DNA of 64,000 nt from Phytoactinopolyspora halotolerans (GTDB lineage Bacteria > Actinomycetota > Actinomycetes > Jiangellales > Jiangellaceae): contig NZ_JAAGOA010000009.1 of NCBI RefSeq assembly GCF_010550675.1, positions 62,001-126,000 on the forward strand. Direction: 5' to 3'. The translations under genes and the position numbers were made by a program. The notes beneath the pieces were generated by a model that was given only the letters and a program-made list of their open reading frames with translations, was not told the origin of the DNA and searched no databases. Shown in pieces: positions 4,441 to 7,074 of this stretch (position 1 is the first letter of the stretch; the number at the start of each line of letters is the position of its first letter).

Positions 4441-4604
4441 TCGTGCCGGTTCGCGCATCTCCGGATCGGCACCTGCGCCACCACGTTCGCCCGTTCTTGT
4501 GCTAACCTTGCTCCCGCTATGCGGATCTGACACCTGTGCCGGCCCGTGTTCTGCGGTCGTCTCGACCCGGCGGGCATCGTACGACCCCATATCGGAGTCA
4601 TCAG
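4441..4604 (+). promoter_or_regulatory. 5' leader of the ABC-F gene with mini-ORF and SD-sequestering hairpin
   Basis: A TANNNT-type -10 (TAACCT, 4503-4508) is followed by a minimal ORF at 4519-4530 (ATG CGG ATC TGA, Met-Arg-Ile). The Shine-Dalgarno GGAG (4594-4597) lies in GGAGTC (4594-4599), which can pair with GACCCC (4583-4588; one mismatch, 5-nt loop) and would be hidden. GGTCG at 4555-4559 can pair either with CGACC at 4563-4567 (3-nt loop) or with CGACC at 4582-4586, which overlaps the SD-blocking arm. Alternative pairings of this kind are typical of attenuators before resistance ABC-F genes; the function here is inferred. Confidence 0.45.
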
Positions 4605-6221
<1,617 letters not shown>

Positions 6222-6231
6222 GATGGCGAAC

Positions 6232-6297
6232 ATGGCGGCAATCACACTCATCAACGGCACAGCCTCTTGCCGGCTGCGCCGCCGCGCGACGGCATAG
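6232..6297 (+). CDS. Erm leader peptide with RLR arrest motif
   Basis: A 21-codon ORF begins 10 nt after the ABC-F stop. AGGA at 6220-6223 lies 8 nt before its ATG; an in-frame ATG at 6223 would add three residues. The peptide contains ITLINGTASCRLRRR. The Arg-Leu-Arg at residues 14-16 is the known ribosome-arrest motif of macrolide-sensing leaders such as ErmDL. The segment LINGTASCRLR also resembles the corynebacterial ErmX leader as I remember it (LISGTAFLRLR). The ORF ends 138 nt before the methyltransferase start. It is predicted to stall a drug-bound ribosome at RLR and so switch the structure of the downstream RNA. Confidence 0.75.
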   Translation: MAAITLINGTASCRLRRRATA

Positions 6298-6434
6298 CCC
6301 GCTACCCACGGCTCGCATCTCAGCCAGTCTCGGTAGTCGGCGTATGCCGGTCTCCCGTGTCGATCTGACGACCGCGGTGAGCAGGTCCGGCTCTCGATGG
6401 ACCGCTCGTACGCACCGAGATCCCTGTGGTGAGC
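6288..6434 (+). promoter_or_regulatory. Candidate attenuator RNA between leader peptide and erm
   Basis: Several pairings are visible. GACGGCATA (6288-6296, just after the RLR codons) pairs with TATGCC-g-GTC (6343-6352). CCGGTC (6347-6352) can instead pair with GACCG-c-GG (6370-6377). AGC-a-GGTCC (6380-6388) pairs with GGACCGCT (6399-6406), extended by GGTG (6376-6379) with CACC (6413-6416). The 7-mer GGTGAGC occurs at 6376-6382 and again at 6428-6434 as the erm ribosome site, so both copies compete for the same GCT/CACC partner. Which state is 'on' cannot be decided by eye. Confidence 0.5.
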
Positions 6435-6435
6435 C

Positions 6436-7074
6436 ATGCCTTCGCGCACACATAGAAAATTCTCTTCCGATAACCGCCCCGGAATTCACATTCTCCGCGA
6501 TCGGGCCGTTCTGCGCCGACTTGTCCAGTCCGCGTCGCCAGGCGCCGGAGATATCGTCGTGGAGTTCGGCGCCGGGACCGGGGTATTGACCGCTGCCCTG
6601 GCTCAGACCGGCGCCCGGGTCATTGCCGTCGAGCGGAGCCCGGCCTTCGTCGCTCGCCTGCGACGACGGTTCCCGCCGCCGGGAAACGTCCGGGTGGTGC
6701 AGGCGGACGCCCGTGAGGTGATCCTCCCGCGACAGCCGTACGTGGTGGTGGCGAACATCCCCTACTCGATCTCCACCGCGCTGCTGCGCCGGTTGCTCAC
6801 CCCGACGGCAAGCGGGCTCACCGCCGCCGACCTGATCGTGGAGTGGGGCTTCGCCAAGCGTGTCACCGCAGCTGAGCCACGTGATTTCGAGGTGGCGTGG
6901 TGGCAGTTGCGATACCAGATCGAGATCGTCCGGCGCATACCACGGCGCAGCTTCACCCCGGAGCCCTCGGTGGACTCGGCTCAGTTGAGGATCCGGCGCC
7001 GTCGCGATCTCCGAGCTGCTGAGCTGGACCGTCGCCGGCGGGAGCTGCGCGCCGCCTATCGTCGTCGGCGCTGA
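6436..7074 (+). CDS. erm: Erm-type 23S rRNA (adenine-N6) methyltransferase, C-terminally short
   Basis: 212-aa SAM-dependent methyltransferase. Motif I EFGAGTG is at residues 43-49, the acidic VERS follows, and the catalytic NIPYS is at 107-111 (adenine flipped against the Asn-Ile-Pro-Tyr loop). RLR-type leader plus NIPY assigns it to the Erm family that methylates A2058 and blocks macrolides, lincosamides and streptogramin B. Typical Erm proteins are about 240-260 aa with a helical C-terminal domain. Here the protein ends soon after PEPSVDSAQLRIRRR with an Arg-rich tail, so most of that domain is absent, as in mycobacterial Erm(37). The usual N-terminal SQNFL signature is replaced by GIHILRD. 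Codons 5-20 include AGA, AAA, TCT and ATT, unusual here. Confidence 0.85.
   Translation: MPSRTHRKFSSDNRPGIHILRDRAVLRRLVQSASPGAGDIVVEFGAGTGVLTAALAQTGARVIAVERSPAFVARLRRRFPPPGNVRVVQADAREVILPRQPYVVVANIPYSISTALLRRLLTPTASGLTAADLIVEWGFAKRVTAAEPRDFEVAWWQLRYQIEIVRRIPRRSFTPEPSVDSAQLRIRRRRDLRAAELDRRRRELRAAYRRRR

Follow-up and report, generated by a model that had tools for sequence, protein, structure and literature searches.

Probable leaderless Arg-X-Arg leader peptide ahead of an erm gene in Phytoactinopolyspora halotolerans and related loci across the Actinomycetes

A 21-codon open reading frame (ORF) in the genome of Phytoactinopolyspora halotolerans is likely an erm leader of the Arg-X-Arg (RLR, or +X+) class that attenuates the adjacent erm gene, and one of leaderless form. 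An Arg-X-Arg erm leader is ordinary in principle, and this one is real and conserved. From sequence comparisons, the leaderless form appears to be the rule for actinobacterial erm leaders. On balance we also favor a wider reading, in which most erm genes of the Actinomycetes would have a WhiB7/WblC-type promoter with a transcript starting at a leaderless Arg-X-Arg ORF, so that ribosomes working without a Shine-Dalgarno (SD) sequence sense the drug. In the lineage studied here, this switch would have come to lie at the end of ABC-F, and its hairpin spacer would have given way to a direct mechanism in which the leader 3′ end itself sequesters the erm start. Most of what is known about macrolide-arrest leaders comes from Firmicutes, in which strong ribosome-binding sites precede them. 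The features below lie in the window, that is, the whole 64,000-nucleotide stretch that was analyzed.

4503-4530, + strand: candidate −10 box TAACCT (4503-4508) and three-codon uORF, Met-Arg-Ile-stop (4519-4530), before the ABC-F gene; aligned in relatives
4605-6221, + strand: ABC-F ribosomal protection-like gene, TlrC/CarA/OleB/SrmB group (NCBIfam NF000171, 496 bits, short of the curated cut-off of 800)
6219-6224, + strand: −10 hexamer TAGGAT of the leader promoter; TANNNT at the equivalent distance in 20/20 orthologues and 53 other loci
6232-6297, + strand: leader ORF, MAAITLINGTASCRLRRRATA and stop, 21 codons, ATG 6232 to TAG 6297; presumed leaderless
6271-6279, + strand: Arg-Leu-Arg codons, residues 14-16; presumed macrolide arrest site (+X+ motif)
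6284-6305, + strand: switch arm 2, comprising the last leader codons, the stop, and the following bases (duplex energies; conserved CGGCRTA core)
6331-6350, + strand: element 3, which would pair with arm 2 on induction; a 2:3 helix is possible in 20/20 orthologues
6426-6447, + strand: ribosome-binding site and AUG of erm, which arm 2 is predicted to sequester in the absence of induction (shuffle test)
6436-7074, + strand: erm, 23S rRNA (A2058) methyltransferase-like, 212 amino acids (Pfam PF00398; NCBIfam NF000499, 1.3e-49, below cut-off)

The leader ORF and its conservation within the order

The gene behind the leader has an RrnaAD domain above the Pfam cut-off, and the broad Erm model NF000499 is its best-scoring NCBIfam model, at 168.8 bits against a curated cut-off of 212 bits. 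It encodes a short form of Erm, without the C-terminal domain present in most relatives, and its product presumably acts as an A2058 methyltransferase. The genome has a separate, better-scoring KsgA gene that is distinct from it, and a scan of the genome contigs with the Erm protein returned one locus.

The original prediction had placed a 21-codon ORF with RLR at residues 14 to 16 ahead of this gene, 138 nt from leader stop to erm ATG (6436), and all of these coordinates were confirmed. A second in-frame ATG lies upstream, at 6223; the start at 6232 is preferred on account of the relatives and the spacing from the −10 box. As a short ORF upstream of erm with an Arg/Lys-X-Arg/Lys motif, the leader fits the RLR (+X+) class of Erm leaders by sequence, and an Rfam search gave no match. 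By itself the motif is unconvincing, since a bare R-[LIP]-R ORF occurs in 12% of shuffled upstream regions and 28 times in the 64-kb window. The full pattern, composed of the −10 box, its spacing, and R-X-R five residues from the stop, is found a single time across both strands of the window, at this leader, and in 0.015% of dinucleotide shuffles (1.5e-4 per locus).

The sample of the order comprised 22 genomes, all from one family and all with an Erm-like match, and yielded 20 good orthologues (58 to 100% identity across nearly the whole Erm protein). Each of the 20 orthologous loci has a short ORF 138 to 310 nt upstream of the Erm match, and in every one of them exactly five residues separate Arg-X-Arg from the stop. 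The middle residue X is Leu in 7 loci, Pro in 10, and Ile in 3. Neither Arg varies; the first is encoded by CGG, CGT, CGC, or AGG, and X is written with five codons, which shows that Arg-X-Arg itself is what is kept. Relatives that lacked the ORF or the RLR had been put forward as evidence against an RLR arrest-type erm leader; with the ORF and both Arg residues retained in 20/20 orthologues, that assignment is supported at the level of sequence. In two small metagenome-assembled genomes of the family, the Erm-like gene is short and divergent (about 43% identity), and no such leader precedes it.

Identity between the window and its nearest relative was 92% in the leader, 88% in the 138-nt spacer, and 73% in both erm and the end of the ABC-F gene. 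Purifying selection on the whole leader peptide was considered and not found in the 12-genome genus, within which the leader had a pN/pS of 1.48. Because of this value, our conservation claim is restricted to the two Arg positions, and RNA structure seems to constrain the leader codons as much as the peptide does.

Promoter signature and probable leaderless start

The original prediction also gave the ORF its own ribosome site. This part was not upheld: the purine-rich stretch in question is TAGGAT, a −10 hexamer at an invariant position, and the SD reading was rejected because relatives conserve TANNNT and not the purines or an SD sequence. In the window, the TAG of TAGGAT doubles as the ABC-F stop codon (6219-6221), and the hexamer is followed by 7 nt and then the leader ATG. 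WblC promoters follow a measured rule, GAAAWY/TKGMNN/TANNNT with starts 7 to 8 bp downstream, their −35 elements are often weak, and the Streptomyces coelicolor WblC regulon includes an Erm(O)-type gene (PMC7157823). The AAA box, TKG −35, TANNNT −10, and start spacing of WblC/WhiB7 promoters are common to the aligned erm leaders, whereas the window copy has no AAA/TTG part and no recognizable −35 and so falls outside the full definition (GAAAWY, 3 nt, TKGMNN, 16 to 19 bp, TANNNT). This part is also missing in two other genomes with the leader behind ABC-F and is present in most relatives. A gene elsewhere in the same genome specifies a WhiB7/WblC-like protein that contains EPWGVWGGELF and an AT-hook, RGRPRK.

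Judged by these signals, the window leader is probably translated from a leaderless mRNA. It may instead lie inside a transcript that spans ABC-F, leader, and erm and arises by read-through from the ABC-F promoter, with ribosomes coming off ABC-F reinitiating at the leader and the −10 box left as a relic of an ancestral leaderless promoter; we regard this as a serious but less likely alternative. Only 10 nt separate the ABC-F stop from the leader ATG, no sigma-70 consensus promoter was found in the window stretch, and the AAA/TTG part is missing in the window and in two other genomes where ABC-F is adjacent. Since the leader keeps its −10 but not AAA/TTG, read-through is plausible in the window, and the leader, if co-transcribed with ABC-F, would then not be leaderless. 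Against the internal ORF, however, the window copy keeps TAGGATG and the C preceding the ATG exactly, weak −35 elements are common in WblC promoters (PMC7157823), and direct adjacency of ABC-F and leader was seen in just four of the genomes inspected, those of the window and three congeners. In two genomes of another genus, ABC-F lies about 700 nt or less from the leader, and for several others the upstream DNA that was sampled does not contain it.

The ABC-F gene has a candidate mini-uORF of its own, which makes two separate drug-responsive controls plausible; one transcript may carry both, as the original prediction proposed. A −10-like box lies 10 nt before this Met-Arg-Ile-stop uORF, whose counterparts read MRI or MLI before the stop in three congeners (MLI in one) and ATG-TGA in two further genomes. 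A comparable case is are5sc of S. coelicolor, with its MLV/MRS leaders (PMC12421871). A GC-rich hairpin-like stretch follows the uORF, which is a candidate second attenuator.

Proposed RNA switch between leader and erm

In 20/20 genomes, the leader 3′ end (CGGCRTAR and a few bases) can pair either with its own 5′ part (1:2) or with element 3 (2:3), which is placed 83 to 118 nt into the transcript. The 2:3 core has one fully compensatory exchange (A-U to G-C) on six distinct rows, which is modest evidence. The distance from X to the stop is identical in every orthologous genome, and for this reason the 2:3 arm would sit just past a ribosome whose P site held X at the stall.

For the window and its nearest relative, leader:erm-start pairing and a competing pairing, which together define an erm translational attenuator, were both found in silico. 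Pairing of arm 2 with the erm start, which takes in the ribosome site, the AUG, and the codons after it, reached −32.0 kcal/mol in the window (shuffle mean, −16.3; SD, 2.4) and −29.1 kcal/mol in the nearest relative (shuffle mean, −19.0). Trimming for a stalled ribosome lowered it to −19.1 and −14.2, respectively, and the competing pairing of arm 2 with element 3 remained at −26.6 and −28.7. On stalling, the modelled unpaired probability of the window erm AUG rose from 0.09 to 0.73-0.87; the SD was modelled as paired in both states (unpaired probability, 0.18 and 0.12), such that the AUG alone was freed. The window RNA fold was more stable than shuffles (z = −3.15). As a general rule, sequestration of the erm ribosome-binding site by arm 2 was tested on 20 loci and rejected for 18, and no consistent stall-dependent change in modelled accessibility of the whole ribosome-binding site was seen across the set.

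We infer drug-dependent arrest, a transcription start at the ATG, and induction of erm, in the following way. RNA polymerase would start at or next to the A of the leader ATG, and a ribosome would begin at the bare 5′ end. Without drug, the leader would be read through, and 6284-6305 would fold onto the erm ribosome-binding site and AUG. A macrolide-bound ribosome would halt once Leu15 reached the P site, since Arg14 is incompatible with Arg16 as the next residue to enter. It would hide the 5′ half of arm 2, and the exposed half would switch to element 3 (6331-6350), which would free the erm AUG. As the RNA is being transcribed, element 3 becomes available to arm 2 earlier than the erm start does, and the off state may for that reason need time or the 1:2 hairpin.

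Attenuation could, less probably, be mainly transcriptional, with a terminator hairpin between leader and erm that forms unless the ribosome stalls. Such attenuation, mediated by ribosomes, has been reported for Streptomyces ABC-F genes (PMC12421871), and a strong hairpin (about −26 to −37 kcal/mol) follows element 3 in 18/20 orthologues, some with TTTT. Yet the T-run is poor in most of these relatives, the hairpin and the 2:3 helix are not mutually exclusive, and in the window and its nearest relative the hairpin is absent; no terminator-like site was found in the window stretch.

Leaders of other actinomycete erm genes and known systems

A search of 394 genomes of the class with the broad Erm model gave 69 erm genes above the cut-off, all outside the order, and the upstream DNA of each was inspected. 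Fifty-three of the 69 have a short ORF with Arg-X-Arg and TANNNT 6 to 8 nt before its start, compared with 1.2 expected from shuffles (about 0.02 per locus), and several further erm leaders emerge under relaxed length or distance limits. The same pattern was found upstream of none of 16 ksgA control paralogues; its rate in random windows, 7%, is inflated by the true leaders of minus-strand loci that it includes. Outside the order, Ile, Pro, Leu, Met, and Asp account for most X residues, typically within [F/Y/S]-[V/I/W]-R-X-R-R.

That the ORF arose by chance, or that the locus is RNA structure only and the peptide has no role, is very improbable: bare R-[LIP]-R ORFs are indeed frequent in GC-rich DNA (12% of shuffles) and hairpin pairing constrains the leader codons, but the full pattern is present at 20/20 loci in the order and 53/69 outside it, where chance predicts about 0.0002 and 0.02 per locus, and Arg is retained via different codons while the residue between varies.

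Pooling the 20 leaders of the order with the 53 others, TANNNT lies 6 to 8 nt before the start in 73/73 and at 7 nt in 56; the −10 box and start codon were selection criteria for the 53, and the other features of the logo were not selected. When the 56 leaders with 7-nt spacing were aligned on their starts, AAA appeared at −44 to −42, TTG near −36, and TANNNTG at −13 to −7, with C at −1 in 54/56 and a purine at +1. This pooled logo agrees with the published WblC/WhiB7 promoter consensus and start-site spacing (PMC7157823), and given that fit, the aligned leaders are predicted to be leaderless, transcript and ORF starting together. Pairing with the anti-SD sequence is weak at the leaders (median, −4.0) versus the erm starts (−11.3).

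If the class-wide leaderless version is true, drug sensing would act on ribosomes initiating on leaderless mRNA, and the WhiB7/WblC stress response would be tied to leader-peptide sensing on one transcript. It would also supply a natural Arg-X-Arg series (X = I, P, L, M, D, and others) for testing the arrest rule and a straightforward way to recognize inducible erm genes among actinobacteria, those of the soil resistance reservoir included.

The closest known counterpart is the ErmX leader, MLISGTAFLRLRTNR, of Corynebacterium, Glutamicibacter, and other actinobacterial plasmids, which was recovered in 13 actinobacterial plasmid records. The likeness to it that the original prediction had proposed is supported (8 identities, anchored on RLR; shuffle P = 7e-4), and both leaders have RLR and an upstream LI-x-GTA-x-x. 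ErmX resembles the window further in having a short ORF before erm, an alternative pairing of the leader 3′ end, and a TATAAT 6 to 7 nt before the ATG, like the −10 arrangement of the window; from this spacing, the ErmX leader is probably leaderless too. It differs in that three residues follow RLR, against five in the window leader, and in that ErmX is mobile, whereas the window erm is chromosomal and present throughout the order. The erm proteins are distant, and a tblastn search with the window Erm at 1e-8 found no ErmX. The erm(X) leader has been described as a possible translational attenuator (PMC3350403).

ErmDL of Bacillus, MTHSMRLRFPTLNQ, the model RLR leader, shares the +X+ arrest motif, which was biochemically proved for ErmDL (PMC8298421); there, RLR arrest occurs with Leu in the P site, and the Arg-X-Arg effect predominates with ketolides, whereas with erythromycin it is only one factor (PMC8298421). 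In contrast to the window leader, which has none, ErmDL has a classical AGGAGG ribosome site. Leaderless cysteine-rich short ORFs act as attenuators in mycobacteria (Canestrari et al. 2020, as cited in PMC9094748) and, like the window leader, are leaderless short ORFs regulating the gene behind them; as that citation presents them, they sense cysteine supply via Cys codons rather than a tunnel-bound drug. A review from 2022 on leaderless translation leaves macrolides, leader peptides, and stalling unmentioned. Individual Streptomyces erm leaders have been described in subscription journals. Our literature search, which had most subscription journals outside its reach, found no description of leaderless macrolide-arrest leaders.

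Among the surveyed loci were longer leaders of 29 to 32 codons that end in RPRS or RLRS...DR/GR/HR, and others that end in FRDRRA or VRDRRA before the stop (12 loci, 8 from one family). These endings offer naturally occurring variation of X at the presumed P-site position. Upstream of erm(46), a leaderless-type ORF, MGNTNIAVTEFRRF and stop, lies at about 1178-1222 (TAGGGT, 6 nt, GTG); it lacks Arg-X-Arg, has a strong alternative hairpin behind it, and represents the leader design with a different motif.
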